DNA from: Antedon mediterranea
Taxonomy: Eukaryota > Echinodermata > Crinoidea > Comatulida > Antedonidae
Direction: 5' to 3'
DNA length: 64,000 bases
NCBI RefSeq assembly: GCF_964355755.1
Contig: NC_092675.1
Coordinates: forward strand, 31,394,912-31,458,911
Shown: positions 5,766 to 54,700 of the stretch, in pieces
How the letters are laid out: each line of letters begins with the position of its first letter
How positions within the stretch are numbered: the first letter of the stretch is position 1
The notes under the pieces: generated by a model
What the model saw: only the letters and a program-made list of their open reading frames with translations
What the model was told of the DNA's origin: nothing
The model's database searches: none
Made by a program: the position numbers and the translations under genes

Positions 5766-8590
5766 CAGCAATACTAAGCACAGTCTAAAGGCTGGATACT
5801 GACATCTAATGGAAAACAATACAGCAATACTAAGCACAGTCTAAAGGCTGGATACTAACATCTAATGGAAAACAATACAGCAATACTAAGCACAGTCTAA
5901 AGGCTGGATACTAACATCTAATGGAAAACAATACAGCAATACTAAGCACAGTCTAAAGACTGGATACTAACATCTAATGGAAAACAATACCACAATACTA
6001 AGCACAGTCTATAGGCTGGATACCAACATCTAATGGAAAACAATACAGCAATACTAAGCACAGTCTAAAGGCTGGATACTAACATCTAATAGAAAACAAT
6101 ACCACAATACTAAGCACAGTCAAGAGGCTGGATACTAACATCTAATGGAAAACAATACAGCAATACTAAGCACAGTCTAAAGGCTGGATACTAACATCTA
6201 ATGGAAAACAATACAGCAATACTAAGCACAGTCTAAAGGCTGGATACCAACATCTAATGGAAAACAATACAGCAATACTAAGCACAGTCTAAAGGCTGGA
6301 TACTAACATCTAATAGAAAACAATACCACAATACTAAGCACAGTCTAAAGGCTGGATACCAACATCTAATGGAAAACAATACAGCAATACTAAGCACAGT
6401 CTAAAGACTGGATACTAACATCTAATAGAAAACAATACAGCAATACTAAGCACAGTCAAGAGGCTGGATACTAACATCTAATGGAAAACAATACAGCAAT
6501 ACTAAGCACAGTCTAAAGGCTGGATACTAACATCTAATAGAAAACAATACAGCAATACTAAGCACAGTCTAAAGGCTGGATACTAACATCTAATGGAAAA
6601 CAATACAGCAATACTAAGCACAGTCTAAAGGCTGGATACCAACATCTAATGGAAAACAATACAGCAATACTAAGCACAGTCTAAAGGCTGGATACTAACA
6701 TCTAATGGAAAACAATACCACAATACTAAGCACAGTCAAGAGGCTGGATACTAACATCTAATAGAAAACAATACAGCAATACTAAGCACAGTCTAAAGGC
6801 TGGATACCAACATCTAATGGAAAACAATACAGCAATACTAAGCACAGTCTAAAGGCTGGATACTAACATCTAATAGAAAACAATACCACAATACTAAGCA
6901 CAGTCTAAAGGCTGGATACCAACATCTAATGGAAAACAATACAGCAATACTAAGCACAGTCTAAAGACTGGATACTAACATCTAATAGAAAACAATACAG
7001 CAATACTAAGCACAGTCAAGAGGCTGGATACTAACATCTAATGGAAAACAATACAGCAATACTAAGCACAGTCTAAAGGCTGGATACTAACATCTAATGG
7101 AAAACAATACAGCAATACTAAGCACAGTCTAAAGGCTGGATACTAACATCTAATGGAAAACAATACAGCAATACTAAGCACAGTCTAAAGGCTGGATACC
7201 AACATCTAATGGAAAACAATACAGCAATACTAAGCACAGTCTAAAGGCTGGATACTAACATCTAATGGAAAACAATACCACAATACTAAGCACAGTCAAG
7301 AGGCTGGATACTAACATCTAATAGAAAACAATACAGCAATACTAAGCACAGTCTAAAGGCTGGATACTAACATCTAATGGAAAACAATACAGCAATACTA
7401 AGCACAGTCAAGAGGCTGGATACTAACATCTAATAGAAAACAATACAGCAATACTAAGCACAGTCTAAAGGCTGGATACTAACATCTAATGGAAAACAAT
7501 ACAGCAATACTAAGCACAGTCTAAAGGCTGGATACCAACATCTAATGGAAAACAATACAGCAATACTAAGCACAGTCTAAAGGCTGGATACTAACATCTA
7601 ATGGAAAACAATACCACAATACTAAGCACAGTCAAGAGGCTGGATACTAACATCTAATAGAAAACAATACAGCAATACTAAGCACAGTCTAAAGGCTGGA
7701 TACTAACATCTAATGGAAAACAATACAGCAATACTAAGCACAGTCAAGAGGCTGGATACTAACATCTAATAGAAAACAATACAGCAATACTAAGCACAGT
7801 CTAAAGGCTGGATACTAACATCTAATAGAAAACAATACAGCAATACTAAGCACAGTCTAAAGGCTGGATACTAACATCTAATGGAAAACAATACAGCAAT
7901 ACTAAGCACAGTCTAAAGGCTGGATACCAACATCTAATGGAAAACAATACAGCAATACTAAGCACAGTCTAAAGGCTGGATACTAACATCTAATGGAAAA
8001 CAATACCACAATACTAAGCACAGTCAAGAGGCTGGATACTAACATCTAATAGAAAACAATACAGCAATACTAAGCACAGTCTAAAGGCTGGATACTAACA
8101 TCTAATGGAAAACAATACAGCAATACTAAGCACAGTCAAGAGGCTGGATACTAACATCTAATAGAAAACAATACAGCAATACTAAGCACAGTCTAAAGGC
8201 TGGATACTAACATCTAATGGAAAACAATACAGCAATACTAAGCACAGTCTAAAGGCTGGATACTAACATCTAATAGAAAACAATACAGCAATACTAAGCA
8301 CACTCTAAAGGCTGGATACTAACATCTAATGGAAAACAATACAGCAATACTAAGCACAGTCTAAAGGCTGGATACTAACATCTAATGGAAAACAATACCA
8401 CAATACTAAGCACAGTCTAAAGGCTGGATACTGACATCTAATGGAAAACAATACAGCAATACTAAGCACAGTCTAAAGACTGGATACTAACATCTAATAG
8501 AAAACAATACCACAATACTAAGCACAGTCTAAAGGCTGGATACTGACATCTAATAGAAAACAATACCACAATACTAAGCATAGAAAGGTT
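5766..8590. repeat. 56-bp minisatellite, right block
   Basis: Continuation of the array at 596-1889, with about 50 units of 56 bp. Unit variants (TAATGGAAAA/TAATAGAAAA, ACAGCAAT/ACCACAAT, CTAAAGG/CAAGAGG) recur in ordered blocks, which indicates higher-order repeats of several units. The array decays after about 8585. Confidence 0.95.
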
Positions 8591-12705: not shown

Positions 12706-37692
<24,987 letters not shown>

Positions 37693-39749: not shown

Positions 39750-42700
39750 CTGTAATAAATAAAGCATATTAGACAAAATGATTAGTTTAAAAAAAAAGCA
39801 CAGGCAAACACAACCACACAATGTTGTCAGACAGGATTTGAACATGCGACTTCACACTGACAAGGTGAGCGTCATAACCATTAGACCACATAAGCTTCAC
39901 GATCAAATACGTGTAGGATACAATCTATCACACAGTGAGTAGTAACACTGTATTTCAATGTACTACAAAAGTAGTGTGTTCAATCTATTACACAGTGAGT
40001 AGTAACACTGTATTTCAATGTACTACAAAAGTAGTGTGTTCAATCTATTACACAGTGAGTAGTAACACTGTATTTCAATGTACTACAAAAGTAGTGTGTT
40101 CAATCTATTACACAGTGAGTAGTAACACTGTATTTCAATGTACTACAAAAGTAGTGTGTTCAATCTATCACACAGTGAGTAGTAACACTGTATTTCAATG
40201 TACTACAAAAGTAGTGTGTTCAATCTATTACACAGTGAGTAGTAACACTGTATTTCAATGTACTACAAAAGTAGTGTGTTCAATCTATCACACAGTGAGT
40301 AGTAACACTGTATTTCAATGTACTACAAAAGTAGTGTGTTCAATCTATCACACAGTGAGTAGTAACACTGTATTTCAATGTACTACAAAAGTAGTGTGTT
40401 CAATCTATTACACAGTGAGTAGTAACACTGTATTTCAATGTACTACAAAAGTAGTGTGTTCAATCTATTACGTATCAAAATAATGTACCAACATGTAACA
40501 CATGCAGTAGCATACTTAATTTGTTGCCATAATAAAGGTAATAAACTTACAGATTGTGGCTGAAGTTTACCAAGTGCAAGGTCAATCAGGTCGCCGTCTT
40601 TTACTGTAATAGTACAATCAGCTTTCTCTGAAATAATCAAAGTATGATCAATTAAAATATATTTCCAAGCAACTGTAAGATTAGTCAGTGGCCATGAGAA
40701 ACTTACCATAATCAAATATAAACAAAATGTAATGTAATTTAAAATGATTAATAATAATTTACATTGAGGGGAAAGTTTGTTTAGACTCTAGAAAGTTAAC
40801 TATCGTAGTGTGCAACTGACTATCATAGTGTGCAACTGACAATCATAGTGTGCAACTGACAATCATAGTGTGCAACTGACAATCATAGTGTGCAACTGAC
40901 AATCATAGTGTGCAACTGACAATCATAGTGTGCAACTGACAATCATAGTGTGCAACTGACAATCATAGTGTGCAACTGACAATCATAGTGTGCAACTGAC
41001 AATCATAGTAGGCAACTGACAATCATAGTAGGCAACTGACAATCATAGTGTGCAACTGACAATCATAGCGTGCACCTGACAATCATAGCGTGCACCTGAC
41101 AATCATAGCGTGCAACTGACAATCATAGCGTGCAACTGACAATCATAGCGTGCAACTGACAATCATAGCGTGCAACTGACAATCATAGCGTGCAACTGAC
41201 AATCATAGCGTGCAACTGACAATCATAGTGTGCAACTGACAATCATAGTGTGCAACTGACAATCATAGTGTGCAACTGACAATCATAGTGTGCAACTGAC
41301 AATCATAGTGTGCAACTGACAATCATAGTGTGCAACTGACAATCATAGTGTGCAACTGACAATCATAGTGTGCAACTGACAATCATAGTGTGCAACTGAC
41401 AATCATAGTGTGCAACTGACAATCATAGTGTGCAACTGACAATCATAGTGTGCAACTGACAATCATAGCGTGCAACTGACAATCATAGCGTGCAACTGAC
41501 TATCATAGCGTGCAACTGACTATCATAGCGTGCAACTGACTATCATAGCGTGCACCTGACTATCATAGCGTGCACCTGACAATCATAGCGTGCACCTGAC
41601 AATCATAGTGTGCACCTGACAATCATAGTGTGCACCTGACAATCATAGTGTGCAACTGACAATCATAGTGTGCAACTGACAATCATAGTGTGCAACTGAC
41701 AATCATAGTGTGCAACTGACAATCATAGTGTGCAACTGACAATCATAGTGTGCAACTGACAATCATAGTGTGCAACTGACTATCGTAGTGTGCAACTGAC
41801 TATCGTAGTGTGCAACTGACTATCGTAGTGTGCAACTGACTATCGTAGTGTGCAACTGACTATCGTAGTGTGCAACTGACTATCGTAGTGTGCAACTGAC
41901 AATCGTAGTGTGCAACTGACAATCGTAGTGTGCAACTGACAATCGTAGTGTGCAACTGACAATCGTAGTGTGCAACTGACAATCGTAGCGTGCAACTGAC
42001 TATCGTAGCGTGCAACTGAGTATCATAGCGTGCAACTGACTATCATAGCGTGCAACTGACTATCATAGCGTGCAACTGAGTATCATAGCGTGCAACTGAC
42101 TATCATAGCGTGCAACTGACTATCATAGCGTGCAACTGACTATCATAGCGTGCAACTGACTATCATAGCGTGCAACTGACTATCATAGCGTGCAACTGAC
42201 TATCATAGCGTGCAACTGACTATCATAGTGTGCAACTGACTATCATAGTGTGCAACTGACTATCATAGTGTGCAACTGACTATCATAGTGTGCAACTGAC
42301 TATCATAGTGTGCAACTGACAATCATAGTGTGCAACTGACAATTATAGTGTGCAACTGAATATCATAGTGTGCAACTGACTATCATAGTGTGCAACTGAC
42401 TATCATAGTGTGCAACTGACTATCATAGTGTGCAACTGACTATCATAGTGTGCAACTGACTATCATAGTGTGCAACTGACAATCATAGTAGGCAACTGAC
42501 AATCGTAGTGTGCAACTGACTATCGTAGTGTGCAACTGACTATCGTAGTGTGCAACTGACTATCGTAGTATGCAACTGAGTATCGTAGCGTGCAACTGAC
42601 TATCATAGTGTGCAACTGACTATCATAGTGTGCAACTGACTATCATAGTGTGCAACTGACTATCATAGTGTGCAACTGACTATCGTAGTGTGCAACTGAC

Positions 42701-45700
42701 TATCGTAGTGTGCAACTGACTATCACAGTGTGCAACTGACTATTACAGTGTGCAACTGACTAACATAGTGTGCAAATGATGATCCACTCTATTAAATAAT
42801 ATACTTACTTTTTGATCCATATTCCACACTTCCATTTCCATTCTTAACATCTACAATCCATTTTCCTTTCTTTCCTCCAGGCCCATCAAGTATATCAAAT
42901 GCAAACACTGACTTAACCTTGCTCACATATTTTGCACCATCCTAAATAAGTAAGTTGTATTTATGTATTTAAAATATTGTACATTAAGATTCAGTTAATG
43001 GGTTGTTGATAAAAAATGAATGGCAAAATTACTGTCTAATTTCAATGCATTATAAAATGAAAGATTAAGGATAATATTTTTCACTGAGGTACTGTACATT
43101 TGATAAATACAAAACCCCAATATATATTCACCTTTTCAAGATTTCTTTCAATTTCATCAAAGACAGCGTCACATTTGAATCCTGTTGAGGACGCAGTGTG
43201 GTACATGCGTACACCAGTACTAAAATAACAAATGAACAACTTGAATTTTTTCTACTTCTATTGACTCAATCTACCCAGGTAGTTAATACTGAATTTGGTG
43301 GGTAGGAACCAAGTAAATTATTTTTGAGAAAACATTTATTTTGTAGCAAAACTACTCTATACCTTTTATAAATAGTAATTTGAACTGCTTTGTTGTATGT
43401 TTATATATCAATAGTGTATATCCTTTATACTGCTTTGTTGTATGTTTATATATCAATGTGTATATCCTTTAATAGATTGTATGTTTATATATCAATAGTG
43501 TATATCCTTTAATAGATTGTATGTTTATATATCAATAGTGTATATCCTTTAATAGATTGTACAAATGTACATGCATAGACAAATCTGTATGTGTAGACAA
43601 ACTAGGCAAATTATCTGACAACTGAATATAAAAGTTATTTGATGCCAGCATCTACTAGCCTCAGGTTTTAGGATCTATAGATTAATTTGTACAGGGACAC
43701 AAAGCACTTTAGTTGCCTATGCTTCACTGCTTTCTGCAAGCGATAGGTGCCTAGAGAATGGACAATAATAGTTCAAGAGTGCAGGTTTTAAGCTCCTTAT
43801 TAGTATGAAAAGAAAATATTTCTTCCTGTTTAGATAAAGAGGGTATAAAAATGAAAGGAAGTGGGCCATCAAATACTTTGTACATACCACTTTTTAAGAG
43901 CATCCATACCAGCAAATCATATACTAGTGATTATTGGTGGTAGCTAGTTCAAATGTAGCTAGTTTATAAAAAAGAAGGAGATTCAACTAGCTTGTCTCCT
44001 TTGATGTATTCATTGCAGCCGCCGAATGTTTAACAGATAAGGGAGTAATTATAAACGGTATCGCACATAAGCACTGCGTGGCGTACAAGGTCAATATGTC
44101 ACGAAAAGGTCGTATAATTAATTGTAAAACCGGAAGCAAACCACTTGACCTCGAGCACATGAGCGTCGTGTGCAAGCGCGCGGCAGTGCAAAAAAGCAAC
44201 ACTGTATTCTTTTATTCAATGGAGGTTATTCTACAAAAATTGATGTGATGGAGTTTGATGAGTTGTTAACAAAAGAATTATTAGCAGAATTTGAAGAAAT
44301 AAATACCGAAGTAGGCACCGAAGAAGTGAAAAATATCTGTATATGTAACTGTCCATCGACGGAAGAGACAATAGCCTGCAACGGTAAAGATTGCGAAGTC
44401 AGATGGTTCCATACGAATTGCGTGAGTTCAGGCCTAGCCGCCGAAGAAACGTGGAAGTGCGACAAGTGTATTATTGGTTCTGAGCCTAGTGGGCCAAGCA
44501 ATTATACGAACGCTAGTAGGCCCAGCGAATCAACTACTAACAATAAACCGGAAAAAGGTAAGTATTAATGAGCGTAGATGGTATAGGCCTAGGCCTAACT
44601 AATTAATTACTCTAATAGAAAATAAGGCTATTTACTACCTAGGCCTTGGCTAGTACTACTGTACATTTTATAATTATTCATGGATTTTGCTGTTGACACA
44701 TTTTCCAAATAATTAAATTTAAAATTACCGAAATACAGGGAATAGATATTTCAGCCCTACGTCGCCCACTACATTGATTGTATTTTGCACAGGAAATTAA
44801 AATATTAGGGATAGTCGGATTGAATTTAACTTTTTAGGGGAAAAACATTTTAATTTATGATTTATTTTAAAATAATTCACAGCTGCAAAAAAGAAGCCGA
44901 TAAAATGGAAGAGCCAATATCTACTTGAAAATGCATTAGCTGATTCTTTGGAAATTGTTAATCACTCATTTAACAAAGTTCTTGAAGACCCTATGCTGCA
45001 GTTAAATCCAAAGATGGCAACAGCAATAAACAATGCAGTGGTCGAGTTGCGGTCAAAAGACATTCAGGATGTTGCAAACAAACTTGTCAATACTTTATGG
45101 GAGACAGCAACTGTAGCGAACACTAAAAGAACTGCATCAGAAGGGTTAGACGCAGTGTGTAGAAACTTTCATACTTTTCGCATAAATGAAAACTCAAATC
45201 AATTTTTAGGTTTAGTTGACTGTGATATTGCTGCAAATTTTTTATTCCAAATGGCAAGCGAGGCAATTGTAGAAGAGTTGTTGTTAAGGCAAATTGGGCC
45301 ATATGAGAATGCTGCTGCAAATGAACCGCCACAGGTAGAGGTAACCAAGGAAGAGCAACAAACATTAAGATACATGGCTGGCTATATTCCGCATAAATTA
45401 CTACGCTTTTACAGAAGATTTCCAAATAACAATCTAGCTAATTTATCTATTGATGTATTAAGGAAATTAGAAATTGAAGACAACAATGATAAAATGTCAT
45501 TTTTAGATTATAGTAAAGACTGGATTACAAAAATTAACAGAGGAGGCCTATTTAAAATAAATAATGATTCATTTTTATTTTTTAGGCGGCTAGAATGCGA
45601 GGTAAAACCCATTTTGTCCTCCACAAAAATTACAGAACTTTGTGGTTTAAATTTAAAGGACAAACTTACTTCAGCCCTTGACTCGCCTGTCATTAAATTA

Positions 45701-48700
45701 GCATGGGAACGGTTGATTGGGGATAATGTTAATGAGGTAGTAGTGTCTACTTTATTTAACAAAGTTATTGGATGTTATATAGACATCAGATGTAAGGCTT
45801 TTACCACCGTATATATGATGGAAAGAAAAAAGAAAGATGCATCAGTCGGAAAGAAGGGTGAAAAACCCTTAAGAAAGAAACTTAAAAATAATGACTTAAC
45901 TTAAAGAATTTCCAATTTATTCACAATATAAATATTTTCTATACAGTTCATTAAATACATAAAAGGTGTTCATGAAATTATTATTATATTTCTACTTTAT
46001 TATTTATGGTTTTCGTTCTTTTTGGGAATGGGGTACTGTCTATGCTAAATCCAGACTTCCTGGTGTTGGAGTGGATTGAACCAGTTACACTTCTGGCTCC
46101 TGCAACTTGTAGTGTCAATGCATTATGTTGGAATTGATGAACTGTTGGGTTTTCATTTCTTCCTCCACATCCTCTCTGTTTGCTAAAGTATTCCTCAAGA
46201 GGATCTTGGTTTAGTTTTTCACTCAACACATAGTCCACACCATCAGTAGCAAGCAATTCCTTTGTAAGTTTCACAAAAGAGTTAACTGTAGAGGAACACA
46301 ATAAACATTAATTGTAATAACATTTGCTTTAATATAGTTTTTAACAATACAATCATTAGGAATAACAGGATTTGATGACGTGCCAGGCTAGAAGACAGGG
46401 GTCGCAAGCCCTGGTTTATATTTACTTTTTAATACACTGAAAGATAAAGAACTTATTAGATTGTGCTTTTGCAACCTATGATCTATCAAACAATCTATAG
46501 CTAAACATAAATGAAAAGAAAAAAAATAACCTGTTATTCTTAGTCCGTCAAGTGTTTCACGACTTAGGCACATCCTTTTCTTTTCTGCTGCTGTTGTATT
46601 TGGTGTTTCCAAACATTGATTCTCCCATGTATTAAGAAAGCCGAGGAAATCGTCTACAAGCCACTAAAAGCCAGTAAAAATGATTTCATGAGTAACCATT
46701 GAAAGATGGGCTAGCCCATTCCATGAATAAAATATTCAATATACTACCTGAATGCAAGGATGGATTGAAAAAATGCATGTCGCATGATACCTTATCAACC
46801 AATCAAATGGCAAGGATACACTTAGGTGTATACCCCAAATTCACTGGGGTAAGTATAAATCTTGGCTGAACTTTTCAGTTAAATCATGGCGGTATAAAAA
46901 TATAACTCCATGGGTAAACCGATCTTCATGTTTGGTTGACTATAGGTGTATTAGGATAATTTATATGAAATTCTTTAATAATTTGAAAAACAAATCTGTA
47001 CCTTTAATCTTGAATCATCCACACTTCTGTATTCTAACAGGTTCTCATTTATGTTGTTTCTTCGTCTCTCAACACGACTAACATTAAGACAATCAAAAAA
47101 CTTGTTCATGTACTTTATGAAGTGGATTAGACTTTTTGTGTCATGTCTGCCTTGAATTTCCAACGCATGGGCAACACTGCTGCTAAGGATCTAAGATAAA
47201 TGGAGAATGATAAAAACTTTAAAAAATGTATTTGCCTAGACAACAAGAAAGAAGTCAATTTAAATTTACATTGGGTCTCAGATTACTAAAAACTAAACAA
47301 ACAAACTAAAATTACCTGGACAGCTAGTTTAACTTTCATCCTTAAGCTTGGCGTAAGGTATAAATGTTCGTGGCGTATTTTGTGGAGTTTTCTTAGGCCA
47401 CTACCACATCCAATATCTTCTTCTACCAAGGTGAGCAACTGATTCCACTTTAGATCTTGATGATTAAACTGCAAAAAAAAAGAGGAAAAAAAATGAAGAG
47501 CTTGCCACTGTAGCATAAAGTTGGGGGGGGGGGGGGCGGAATTGTGTTTTCACTAGTAAAAACTGGTATGAAAAAAAAATATTAAAATGTATAACTCACA
47601 TGCAAGTTTCTTGATTTTGAGTTAAATCCAGAGTTTTCGAGATTATTTCTTGTAGTCTTTAACAAGTGTGGAGTGTCGCAAATGAAATAGATATTCCTTT
47701 TCGTATATGGACTAATGGTTGAAAAGACAACTTCTGAAGAAACAGATGTTCCATGCTGTCTGTAAAATTTTCGATTTGGACTTGCACCATCACATACGAA
47801 AGCACAAACTCTGAATCCTGCATACTCTAGCCAAGTCACAGCTTTCCATATGATCCAATATAAATTGTAACTCTTGCAGCCATGAGTGGGGAAATGTGCG
47901 AATGTTTCATGTAAAGGCATAAACATGCCCCGAACCATCAGAGACAACATGTGTGATGCTTCCTTTGGTTGTTTATTTTTGTCCAAGTCCAACTCTCTTG
48001 CAAAATTGTCCATGGCTTCGTTCATTGATCCCATACTGGAGAATCCAACAAGATTACCCGATTTGCTAGAATACACAAGACCTGCGTTTATCTTCATTTC
48101 ATCAAAACTTAATGAAACAATTTTCCTAAAATTAGGTAACGCATCAAAATGTATATCATGCTTTATCCGCAGGATAACATCAGGATTAAAACCAGACTTT
48201 GCATCAGTAAAATGTGTGTAGTTCCTTAGGGTATTTTCATGTGGCAATGTCAAGTAACCAGAGTTCCTAATAATACGGTAAGCTGCAGTAGACTTCATGT
48301 GCAACGCTAAGCAAAAACGAATTATTGCTGGGTGCCAACGACGACCTGTTGCAGATGATTTATTGGCAGCCACTTGTTCATCCCATAGTAGTCTTTGTGG
48401 AGAACCTTCCTTAAATTGTTCTGACACAGTTTCTGTATGTGTTGTCATTATTGTCTTTAGAGCTTCAGACATTGTTTCTTGCAATGGACTAGAATCATCT
48501 TCAAATGACTTCCTTACTTTTTCTTTAAGGTCTTTAACCATTTTCTGTAAGTTTTTCCTGTCATTTGACACCAACATCAACTTTTTCCTTAACTGATCAT
48601 TGTTTAACTGATCATTTCGTGCATGAGAACTAATGTCTACTGCTTTTTGATCATTAATTCTTGACCTTTTAGACATTAACGTTGTTCTATACATTGTGCA

Positions 48701-51700
48701 TACTTCACAGCGATTTCCCTCAACAAATATACAGCAGTTCACGTGCCTTATTGTTCTTTCACCATTTGTGTCCTCTTCCATTGCCACTGTTGATCCAGAA
48801 ATACTATTAAACACTGCTAGGTTTGATGGTGATTGCTTGCGACAAAGTTGGATGAACTCAGTGTTTCCACAGCAAATTGCAGATTTCCATATCCATGTCA
48901 ATAAACATTCTGCATTATCTTCTGTCAGAATTTCAGGAAATTTTGCACATCTATTTGTAGAATCCTTCAACAAAACATTTACTTTCCATGAGCATGTGGC
49001 ATAAATATGCACACAAACAATAGGAAGATCATTAATTATCTTAATGAATGTGACTTTGTCGGTTCCAAGTTGTGCTACAAAGCCAAGATTCTTCCCAATT
49101 GCTAGAATTTTGTTGAGATTGATCAATGGAACAGAAAATGCACATACAGAACAATTATCATCGGAATGTTCAGCAAATGGCAAAAGATGAATTGATATTT
49201 CTTTGTCTTTTTTCTTATTGCGGAAAGTCCGCCAACGATGTAATTTCATCTTACAGCAGTTGCAGATGAAGTTGGGATGGATGCCATCTACATCTTGCAA
49301 CACATCAACTCCTAATGAAAGGTTGATATCTCTTGCATAGCACAACTTGGATTTCAATAGATTTATTTTAGAGCAGTTTTTTTTACCACATAATCTACAG
49401 AGATCCTGGAGGCAACATTTGTGCCGTTCCATTTTCTACAATTTCCTGAAATTAAATTAATTTAGAAATTATAAAAAAAATCATTGGCATTTAAAAAAAA
49501 TGTACTTATTGCTAATATTGTAAAATAAAGTTAAATTACCTGGTATTACCATTAATTATTCTGTATATTTTGGTTACCAATTCAATGTTTGCAAGACATT
49601 TATGATATTTAAATATCTTAAAATTCTTATGTAACTTGCAGTTTACCAGATTTAATTTTGGCCTATGGTAGGTTAAAAACTACTAAAATTTAACAAAAAC
49701 AAACCATATTAACCAACTAGTTGTACTGTAGTCTAGGCCTAGACTTAGTAGTGTAGAGGCCTAGCTAGCTAGTTTAGTAGTACTAGTAGCCTTACTTTAC
49801 TTTACTTAGCCTACTCTGTCTTACTAAAATGTGTTCACCATTGTATTAAAATTATAATATAAATTAGCCTATAACTATAAATTATATTAATAACAATGTT
49901 GAATAGGTTCACGAATCATAATATCAAACAAGAAGGATACTCTAGGCCTAGCCCCAGCATTATCTTCCTAACCCGTTGATTACGTCACACTTGATGAACC
50001 AACAAGCGACTCGCCGAGAAAAAAGCCCTATGTTGCAATGCATGTAGAGAAAATATACACGCGTGTACACGGTCGGGATTTTCACGGTTTGACACCTAAA
50101 TTATTAAATAATATTTACTAAAAAAAATCATTTTCCGACGTTATCGTGTTATCGATATATAATATAAAAACCATAAAATCTTAAACTTACGGTTATTTTG
50201 GTAAATATTACTCGATTTTCTTCTAATAAAATGTAATGGCTTTCTAAATTCAATATGGTTTCGGATAAGTTAAACTCTGACCCCACAAGCCCTCTCTAGA
50301 AGCAAATACAACCAAAAAAGTGTTTAAAATACATGTTCGGGGCGACTTAAATGCTAAGGGGCCTTGTAACAAGCGTATGAACGACCGGCTGCACTGACAA
50401 CGATGAAAGGCGACGTCCCGCGTGGCAGAGCGGAAGGCGGCTTTTTTGAACTCATTTAAGCGAGCCAATCAGCGTCCGAGGAAGTCAGTCATAGTTCATA
50501 TAGCACACAGCATTTTAATCTCTATTAGCTAGTTGAATCTCCTTCTTTTTTATACCTCCATGGTTCAGCAAAGGTACTGGTGGTAGGATAAGACTGATAC
50601 TAAAGGTCACAGGACTTAAGCAAACCTTTGTACATAATTGATAGGGTTTAGCAAATACAGTACATATGTCAAGGATGATGATGGATAACATACTATATAG
50701 AGGGCACTAGTAGCAGACCATGATTGTAGGAAAATTATATGGTTTACAAAATATGAGAAGCTTTTAATTTAAAGCCAAAAAGAAGATGGTGAAATATGCA
50801 TAAGACAAGATACTAACTTTTGTAATTGCTCAATTTGGTATGGCAATAATACACATATTACAGTATAATAAAAAAATGAAATCACTGAAATATTAATGCA
50901 ATATTAAATAAATGCATCGTCAGCTATGAAAACAGAGTTCAAATCATTCTTGGCATCCAAACAGTGAACTTTGTCATCAAATCAATTTAATTGCTTTAAA
51001 TAATTACCTGGTATTTGGGAAGCCAAGTTTATATAGTCCAACGACTACAGCGCCCCCAAGTCCGATATTATGCTGCAATGCTAGCTTAGCATTTGGTACT
51101 TGTCGTTTACCAGCTTCGTTCCTAAGTTGCCAACATAACTCAGAACACTGAGCAAGACCTACAAAAAAACAAATGTGCAGAACTAAATTTTACATGAGTA
51201 CTATTATTAATATAAGTCATTAGTGGGTACTACACTATCATCTTGGTCAAGCAATGTTAGTATACACACATGTACTGTAGGAAAAATTTACATTTACATC
51301 AGGGGTTAAAATTCTATAAATTAGTTGGCAGCATAAACTCTAAACCACCCGATATTGTGTGTATTATTCAGTTTAACAGAAAGGGCAGTGTAGGAATGAT
51401 TATTTTTAAATTCACTTTGTTGTTAATATATGCTAGTAGTGACTCTAATTAGCTTAGATCATAAAGTAGTTTTTTAGTTTTGTTGTGCGACAGCACAATT
51501 TATTTCAATACGGTCAAGATAAATAAAAATGATTGTCGAAAATAAAACCGTAAATAAGGTCAAACCAAAAGAAAACAATTTTTCTTGTCCTGTTAGACCT
51601 TATACTTGGTAAAAATACAGATAGAAACGTAAATAAGTTTATGTTGTAAAATAATAAACACATATATAGATGTGAATTTATAAGTAAAAGAGACATTCAT

Positions 51701-54700
51701 AAATCTTGCTAATAATGAGTGATTGCTTAAATCTATGGAAATATTTGAAAAGGACAAAACAACTCTAACTATCTGTACAATTCATCCACCATTGTCCACA
51801 AATACAAGCCAACTTAAGTACAGCTGCTTATGTTATATCCGGTATTAAAGTGTTGATGTAATACATGTCACATTACATTAAGTTTACTTCAAATAGTTGG
51901 CATCATATCAAACTATACCAAACCGTACCCCATACTAACTTTATTTATTCTATTGCTTCTAGTTGAAAACTTAACACAACCTTTTATCTTTATAAATTCT
52001 ACTTATTTTTTAATTTAATTTAAATTGTTACATGTTTATGTCTTGTCATATTGTATTTTTGTGAGAGTCCCTAATGATCAGCTTCGGCTGGATGCACCAC
52101 CCTCTTAAAATATATAAAATATCAAAATAAAACAATATAAATTAAACCAGTCATTGCAGCTACAAATAGCACATAGTAACTGAAGTTGGATTGGATCATG
52201 ATGAAGAATATCATTGCTAACAAATTAAGTATGCTTATTTAGTTCAGAAAAATCACTATGATTTCCACCAACAAAGTAACCATGGTTTCTTTTGTATAGA
52301 ACATTACATTTTCAGCACATAATAAAGTGACAAACAAGTGACAATGTGGTGCTCATCTTGGGTTTAGTTGAATCATTGAGTATGATACCATAAAGTTCAA
52401 ATTTAACTAAAGGACAATGTTATCTGTTCATCTAGTGTCTCACTGACTACGGTCTGACTTAAGTTCAAACTCACAAAACCAAAGGACATTGTGGTAGTCA
52501 TCTCCTGTGTAATTGACTTATTGAGTGTGACTTAAGCTGAAAATCAAAGGCATTTCAGTGGTTCATTGGAGCATAGAGATATTATAATATCTCTATGATT
52601 GGAGGTTCAGTTAAACAGTGTTACTTTGGGATAAAAAAAAAAAACTAATTTTGTTGTTTTGAAACTTTCGATATTGTGTGTTAATACAATATTTAACTCC
52701 TTTGTATCCACAATCTTTAAGAAGTTGATTAATTTGTGAACAAACTGTAATTAGTAGAGTTTACGTTCCTGTACCAAGTCATCAATTCAAATTGACCTAA
52801 CCTAATGGGTTGGCCGAATCAACCAAGTCTGATTCACTTCCGGATGGTAGTAAACACACAAGGCTTGGATGGCCTAAGCCACAAGTTAATTAAGAATCTT
52901 AAGTCTAGTTTCTTAATTGAAACGTCAACTATAATGTGCAAAAGGGTCAAGGACATGATAGTTAGTTTTTTTAGCTTGACATCTTCGACCCACTTTCCCT
53001 CGAGTGTACACTTATTCCGGCATTCACTTCACTTTCTTTTTGCTTCAGTCAATTCAAGCTGTTAAATAGACTTATTAGTTTATTCTTAATTTGTTAATAG
53101 ACACTTCATAATAATTCCATTAGAAATGAACCTGTATTTATGATTTGGACCTATTTGTATTTATTTACTGAGCACTATTTATGATAAAGACCTATTTGAA
53201 TGTGTCAGGATCCTTAAAAGTATATCTTTTGATGTTATTAACTGTATTTTTAAACCTGTAACATTTGAATTAAACAAATGTAAATATTTATGTAAACACT
53301 AAATAAATGCATTACATTTTAGTTACTATTGTTCATGAATATAATTTAATAACAAATATAACATCCACACAAATGCTTAGATGAAGGTTATCGGTTCCAT
53401 GACCTTTAAATCCTTCATTTTCATTGGTTAATATATAATCATAACTAAATTTATATCACAAAAATTATCCTAAAACAGTTGACAGAAAATTAACATTGGC
53501 CTACATATATCCCAGATATTTAAATTAAATCACAACTATAGTTAGTTTTTTCATGTATTTTTCATTTTAAGTTGATTTGAAGCAGAAGACAGATTTGTTA
53601 AAATGTTGGTTTGACAGCTCTGATTCACCAACTGTACAGTAAAGTATAGGGACAAAAGGGGTTATATATATAACACTGGTTTTTTAACTTATGGGTCGAC
53701 TATAAAGAGGAAAAGAAGTGGTAGGGAAGCATTGTGTCCATCCATAGTAAATAGAGTACAAACTGACCAATAATGAATTCTAACATACCTGTCGCATCAA
53801 GCGGGTGTCCTTTGGAAATAAGTCCTCACAAACTGACCAATGATAAATATTAACATACCTGTCGTACCAAGCGGGTGTCCTTTGGAAATAAGTCCTCACA
53901 AACTGACCAATGATAAATATTAACATACCTGTCGCACCAAGCGGGTGTCCTTTGGAAATAAGTCCTCACAAACTGACCAATGATAATATTAACATACCTG
54001 TCGCACCAAGCGGGTGTCCTTTGGAAATAAGTCCCCCACTTGGATTCACAACATATTTTCCACCATACGTGTTGTCTCCTCTGTCAATCATATTACCTGC
54101 TTCACCTGAAATAAATCAAGTATATAAAATATAGGAATTAGACAGATAATAAATAGTTAGAAAAGTAAAATTCATATCAGGAGTAACTTGCTTGCAAACT
54201 AGTATGATTTAAACAATGTAAAATGTATTATCCTTGTGATATATAGAAATTAGATTGTTGGAGGTAGTACAATTTATGATAGGAGTCAGAATGCCAGCAA
54301 ACTTGCTAAAATAATCTCATTAAAAATGTGTATCCAAACAATGGATGGACAAAACAGTTATGTCTAAATCTTAAGATCTGTCTACAAAGTTTATGTGACA
54401 AAAAATGTGATGCGCCCATATATGGACATGGTGGTGTCATATCACTCCCATATATGGGCTTTTTTTTGTCAAACTAGTTGTATAGACAGAGCCTAAAGTA
54501 CAGTATGTACTCTAGGATATACACCTGTGTCCATTTTATTGATGTTAAATTGTTAAAAGGTCAGTAGTTCAGTTTGATGCCTCTCAACTGGGCCAAATTG
54601 TTAATAAGAATGTAACTGCTATTAATTAATTAATGAGACTTAAATTAATCACTGCCGATATAATTTAGTTGGATGTGAGTCATAAACAAATACTTATTTA

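Follow-up and report, generated by a model that had tools for sequence, protein, structure and literature searches.

Layout of the element

The window analyzed here is a 64,000-nt stretch of DNA from the feather star (crinoid) Antedon mediterranea, and contains an element in which two spliced genes are enclosed by a perfect 28-bp inverted repeat (43965-43992 and 50527-50554). An earlier note on this DNA had described identical 24-bp ends around two intact, tail-to-tail genes; both features hold, with the repeat extended to 28 bp and the terminus corrected to CATGG. A 20-bp core of the repeat occurs twice in the window (≤3 mismatches), and in none of 100 dinucleotide shuffles. The position of the terminus was judged from other copies of the element, and on this basis the right terminal inverted repeat (TIR) of the window copy (50527-50562, minus strand) is complete up to its CATGG, while the left one (43965-43992, plus strand) lacks the outermost 8 bp of the other copies (CATGGAGG). 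The window copy has no readable target-site duplication (TSD), and the duplications that had been read from the window alone (4-bp TATA, or an imperfect 8-bp repeat) are superseded by the 7-bp duplication of other copies. AGGCCTA words occur near the ends, and elsewhere in the window such words are common too.

The two genes are convergent, with their stop codons 79 bp apart. Both reading frames are intact, and the spliced models agree over their full lengths, with 100% identity, with the NCBI predicted proteins P0001 (443 aa) and P0002 (869 aa). The larger protein, here called subunit A, is encoded on the minus strand in five exons (47600-49432, 47316-47468, 47002-47190, 46531-46663 and 45984-46285), the last of which includes the stop codon and the catalytic glutamate (E800/801). 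The smaller protein, subunit B, is encoded on the plus strand by gene 2, which has two exons (44248-44557, and 44883-45904 including the stop codon).

A P-type transposase with a RAG1-type module

Subunit A contains a helix-turn-helix (HTH) domain, both RNase H parts and a GTP-binding insertion according to Pfam, which together make up a P-type (TNP-like) core, and its alignment to the structure of the Drosophila P transposase has an E of 1.2e-19. The previous description of this protein as a P-type transposase is thus confirmed. The acidic triad is likely to consist of D444, D548 and E800/801. A search for homologues yielded 13 proteins, and those named come from Antedon (one, the protein itself), Strongylocentrotus (one), Diadema (two) and Asterias (one), with identities of 36-39%.

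There is no Pfam match to the THAP family in subunit A, and the first ∼98 residues instead hold a zinc module of the RAG1 non-core type (residues 1-98; 49139-49432, minus strand). This part of RAG1 is also named the Chapa domain, and has been described as the protein's central non-core domain (PMC3124419). When the window protein is searched by itself, Pfam gives only zf-AD for this module, at E 1.3e-5 and below the cut-off. A profile of eight family members was compared with 177,635 distinct PDB sequences, and ranked RAG1 first (E 5.7e-9 for the isolated RAG1 domain and 1.2e-6 for full-length RAG1, versus 0.0063 for the best insect ZAD-type sequence), with an alignment that spans the first CxxC through the final H..C..C. 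The insect ZAD is therefore rejected as the closest kin of the module, given that the family profile favors RAG1 by about six orders of magnitude, and the RAG1-N-like module that had been proposed is upheld by this profile. Pfam RAG1_imp_bd is above the cut-off in the Diadema homologue P0004, and is not listed for P0002. A second motif, R..C..(8)..C..C, lies at residues 229-245 (∼48698-48748, minus strand) and corresponds to no named domain; R229, C233, C242 and C245 are invariant across 11 aligned family members.

The C-terminal domain (CTD) of P transposase is absent from subunit A, and its profile has no match in the partner transposases. Four of the family proteins (P0002, P0003, P0004 and P0008) end 64-74 residues past the catalytic glutamate, and two THAP-type transposases end 245-249 residues past it; P0006 has a 197-residue tail composed of repeats. 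The short basic tails are alike among the family transposases, which makes truncated gene models an unlikely cause of the missing CTD.

The partner gene encodes a PHD finger and a CTD-like region

Subunit B begins with a PHD finger (residues 31-75; 44338-44472, plus strand). As had been noted, this finger is of the ING type (best E 3.9e-9); the alignment is ungapped over the finger, and the spacing of the zinc ligands is identical to that of ING3. The C-terminal half of the protein (residues ∼255-421; 45335-45835, plus strand) matches the P transposase CTD. This profile match is confined to CTDs and is equaled by none of 400 column shuffles, and the residues Y-A-G-Y and G-G-L are invariant in an alignment that was made without hints. 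In a reverse search with a hidden Markov model (HMM), set against 3000 shuffles, P0001 ranked first, P0016 second and P0015 seventh among the 20 matches listed.

When gene 2 was first compared with protein sequences, the Antedon protein itself was the sole match among the 7995 candidates with the most shared words, which alone were scored; a second comparison added two distant relatives. A PDB profile search with gene 2 found nothing, Pfam gave no kelch family at E ≤ 1, and scans of viral contigs and genome contigs confirmed no relatives.

Recurrence of the partner gene

A search of the Antedon genome with subunit A gave at least 61 matches (52 of 129 candidates scored). Twenty-five stretches were fetched, two of them overlapping, so that 25 loci were compared, including the window. 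Three of these (L019, L022 and L030) lack the transposase 3' end and were left out of the count, which leaves 22. A locus was counted as having a CTD gene if a CTD open reading frame (E ≤ 0.05) was found no more than 1.5 kb from the transposase match and in the opposite orientation. By this measure, a convergent CTD gene is present in 14 of the 22 loci (weakly in L018, E 0.0011); these 14 are not independent, and fall into about seven families by identity.

A PHD exon lies beside the CTD gene in eight of the 14, one of them weak, based on a profile built in part from the finger of the window copy and two ING fingers. The exon precedes the CTD and shares its strand; it is clear in the window, L009, L032, L033, L016, L014/L017 and L015 (E 1.6e-11 or better), and in L025 it is weak and split over two frames (E 0.016 and 0.026). 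L023 has a weak PHD match (E 0.026) with no adjoining CTD. The PHD-CTD partner is present even in relatives that are only ∼30-35% identical. In L016, where both proteins are ∼30% identical for most of their length, all of these parts are enclosed by perfect TIRs and a 7-bp TSD. The RAG1-type module was found in nine of the 25 loci (window, L009, L014, L015, L016, L019, L021, L022 and L031).

In a separate genome search with gene 2, all 38 candidates were scored and 25 matches were obtained, with CTD sequence in 11 places. Nine of these adjoin a transposase 3' end, and the remaining two (C2:27336299 and C4:13005127) were left out of the reading; three PHD-only matches are presumed to be host genes. 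By the earlier note, a consistent lack of the PHD gene from other copies would mark it as a captured host gene. No such lack is seen in the Antedon genome, where the PHD partner recurs as a regular component of the family.

The comparison of gene 2 in the window copy with that of L032 or L033 (312 codons, with 12-13 synonymous and 13-14 non-synonymous changes) gives a dN/dS of 0.27, which suggests purifying selection. For transposase exon 1, L014 versus L015 gives 0.63; L015 has a frame change that probably raises this value, which was not used.

The H3K4me3 cage of ING2 is formed by Y215, M226, D230 and W238. In the window copy, these positions are occupied by I, T, N and W, so that three of the four are changed and only the W is retained, and on the basis of these changes it is doubtful that this copy reads H3K4me3. 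By eye, L016 retains M and W in register, L014/L015 retain M and have W one position short, and L025 retains Y and M ahead of its frame break. In the relatives, the PHD finger is preceded by a visibly acidic N-terminal stretch.

Mobility

In a test of the ends that required CATGG as the start, 26 of 26 terminal bases and seven of seven target bases match in four of the 25 loci (L016, L024, L032 and L033). The target duplication is 7 bp in all four, and by eye also in L011, L012 and L013, which are described below. L009 lies on another chromosome and is 99.5% identical to the window copy over 6,493 aligned bases; its left end is present, and its right end is short by ∼130 bp. L032 (3750-6889) and L033 (2554-5683) are internally deleted and retain only gene 2 and the last transposase exon, between perfect TIRs with a 7-bp TSD.

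Five short CATGG...CCATG palindromes, each between perfect 7-bp repeats (no shuffle control), were seen at 477-496 of L011, 2159-2187 of L028, 3718-3742 and 6279-6298 of L032, and 3145-3164 of L033; two of the five are apparently one event in sister copies. They look like excision footprints, that is, terminal pieces that stayed behind after excision. A similar 28-bp CATGG...CCATG palindrome lies in a transposase intron of the window copy (46885-46912) and is present in L009 too. Its flanks (GTTAAAT and GGTAAAC) are alike at five of seven positions, and it looks like the trace of an old excision by a related element.

A second lineage

Three loci (L011, 2998-8550; L012, 1661-7235; L013, 1659-7222; termini CTGAGACAAC) are copies of another P-type element, with a transposase that is 36% identical. 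The copies are ∼99% identical to one another, so that this family is young by copy identity, and L027 is a broken relative. The flanking 7-bp repeats, identified by eye, are CGGACAC, GCTAGCT and GTTTATA. This lineage also has a convergent CTD gene (E 8e-7 to 6e-6), and profile scans of the four loci detected neither a PHD nor a RAG1 module. From this, the split of the transposase seems to predate the PHD fusion or to be independent of it. Elements with a detectable PHD and elements lacking one coexist in this genome, which offers a natural comparison.

A transposase probably divided between two convergent genes

We consider it likely that the element is a two-gene cut-and-paste transposon in which two convergent genes each encode one subunit of a split P-type transposase. 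Gene 2 is neither a captured host gene nor RAG2. The element is best described as having a P-type core and as a divergent relative rather than a canonical P element, because the CTD is not in the chain of the core. In the proposed mechanism, subunit A would bind the ends through its RAG1-type module and HTH, and would cleave and join DNA with GTP, as P transposase does. The CTD of subunit B would dock in trans into the synaptic complex; by its placement in P transposase, this domain could come from another polypeptide. If the CTD is supplied in this way, the PHD finger would sit near the target, and insertion might be biased or gated by the chromatin state. The acidic stretch that precedes the PHD in the relatives invites the idea of a role at the target like that of the RAG2 hinge and PHD. 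In the RAG system, the acidic hinge and PHD of RAG2 are reported to fill the flank/target DNA site and to inhibit transposition, an effect that can be lifted by an H3K4me3 peptide (PMC11844651).

A stronger version, to which we give slightly less than even weight, is that the P-type transposase strictly requires both subunits. Its target-contacting domain would have moved to the convergent gene and become fused to a chromatin reader, so that a division of labor like that of RAG1/RAG2 would have arisen a second time and independently, in a transposon that has the RAG1 N-terminal module in any case. If so, the RAG1 N module would have been passed around among unrelated superfamilies of transposases, and a convergent pair of catalytic gene and PHD partner would be a recurrent solution and not a single event ancestral to V(D)J recombination.

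Several observations weigh against the split-transposase interpretation. An HMM of three gene 2 CTDs failed to separate THAP-type CTDs from shuffles. The structure models of gene 2 have low confidence (pLDDT 41.3 and 59.8); for the better of the two, the input alignment contained two THAP-type transposases and the Z value is within the tool's warning range. Neither model has a Foldseek match at E ≤ 0.001, and for the poor full-length model 6p5a is not among the best 50 VIA-align matches listed. In addition, no CTD gene is seen in eight of the 22 loci (L010, L020, L021, L023, L026, L028, L029 and L031), some of which are visibly decayed, and neither of the full-gene copies (window and L009) has both ends complete.

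Of the alternatives, the one that survives best, although we regard it as improbable, is that the gene 2 product has an accessory or regulatory role, as a repressor or as the kind of DNA-binding helper that other two-gene transposons encode, and that its helical half only resembles a CTD. Against it stand the restriction of the profile match to CTDs and its absence from the partner transposases, the failure of any column shuffle to attain it, and the invariant Y-A-G-Y and G-G-L residues of the unguided alignment.

A second alternative, which we think very unlikely, is that a P-type element acquired a RAG-like pair, with a RAG2-like chromatin reader as the partner. The N module is indeed of the RAG1 type, the partner does carry a PHD, and the convergent layout is as described for RAG1L-RAG2L (PMC7204232). 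However, gene 2 has no Pfam kelch match, its PHD is N-terminal and of the ING type, whereas the PHDs of invertebrate RAG2L are reported to have another C/H spacing and to follow the kelch domain (PMC7204232), and the remainder of the protein matches the P CTD. The RAG-like toolkit that the earlier note had envisaged therefore stands in part: a RAG1-type zinc module on a P-type transposase and a convergent PHD partner that recurs in the family are both present, but the absence of a kelch match, the ING-type spacing and the CTD match speak against a RAG2-like partner.

It is harder still to see the locus as a domesticated two-gene system and not a transposon. Such a status would fit the two intact frames and the loss of the outer 8 bp at one end, but it is at odds with the nearly identical copy on another chromosome, with the internally deleted derivatives that have perfect TIRs and TSDs, and with the position of the element between exons of an SCPx-like gene. 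Least credible of all is the capture of a host PHD gene by a one-gene P element in the window copy, which the resemblance of the PHD to host ING fingers might suggest, but which is contradicted in the Antedon genome by the recurrence of the gene in L009, L032 and L033 and in the diverged L014/L017, L015 and L016, and by the proximity of most gene 2 CTD sequences to a transposase 3' end.

Comparison with known systems

The Antedon element resembles P elements and THAP9-type transposons in its RNase H core with a GTP-binding insertion, its HTH, its cut-and-paste character and its short target duplications. Like those of the Drosophila P element, its TIRs begin with CATG. It differs from them in having a RAG1-type module in place of the typical N-terminal THAP, a CTD on a separate, convergent PHD gene rather than in the chain of the core, and a target duplication of 7 bp rather than 8 bp. 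To our knowledge, P transposases are single-chain enzymes.

With RAG1/RAG2, RAG-like transposons and ProtoRAG, the element shares a RAG1-type N-terminal zinc module, two convergent genes and a PHD-bearing partner. Those systems have a RAG1/Transib core and kelch, whereas the Antedon element has a P-type core with no kelch match, and its PHD is N-terminal and of the ING type. The RAG target duplication is given as 5 bp (PMC8355894, PMC11844651), compared with 7 bp here. Homology to RAG is limited to the N module, and the convergent layout and PHD partner are a parallel. The element may thus be a P-type element that works as a two-subunit recombinase, and not a RAG relative overall. The RAG1 N-terminal module is also found in Chapaev, Chapaev3 and TransibSU (as the Chapa domain), although there it is attached to Transib/Chapaev-type cores. 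According to a 2015 paper, no other transposases contain the Chapa domain. The N-RAG-TP of Aplysia, which might be a relative of the Antedon family, is described simply as a RAG1-N-like sequence in the portion of the source consulted (PMC8355894). As for the ING-family PHD fingers, the finger of subunit B has the zinc-ligand spacing of ING3, but differs in its cage positions.

A literature search (titles and starts of abstracts, with most subscription journals and Repbase Reports, a possible catalogue of such elements, outside its coverage) found no P-type element with a RAG1-type module or a separate CTD/PHD gene. The RAG1 N module is now extended to a further type of transposase core, which bears on the origin of the module. 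If the CTD has indeed moved to a PHD gene, the element would show how a transposase turns into a two-subunit recombinase, the step that is thought to lie behind RAG1/RAG2. It also becomes testable whether a PHD near target DNA restrains or steers insertion, as is reported for the acidic hinge and PHD of RAG2.

Insertion site and other features of the window

The element is inserted between exons of an SCPx-like host gene, of which the thiolase C-terminal family is matched at 51007-51189 and the SCP2 family at 42795-42941 (below the cut-off) and 40443-40787. At 53758-54034, a 70-bp unit is present four times in tandem, and by eye seems to include part of a thiolase exon and the splice site of that exon. 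The window also contains long tandem arrays with 94-97% matches at 687-1889 (56-bp unit), 5766-8580 (56 bp), 18848-21488 (49 bp) and 40802-42779 (20 bp), and the first two of these share one 56-bp unit in different phase.

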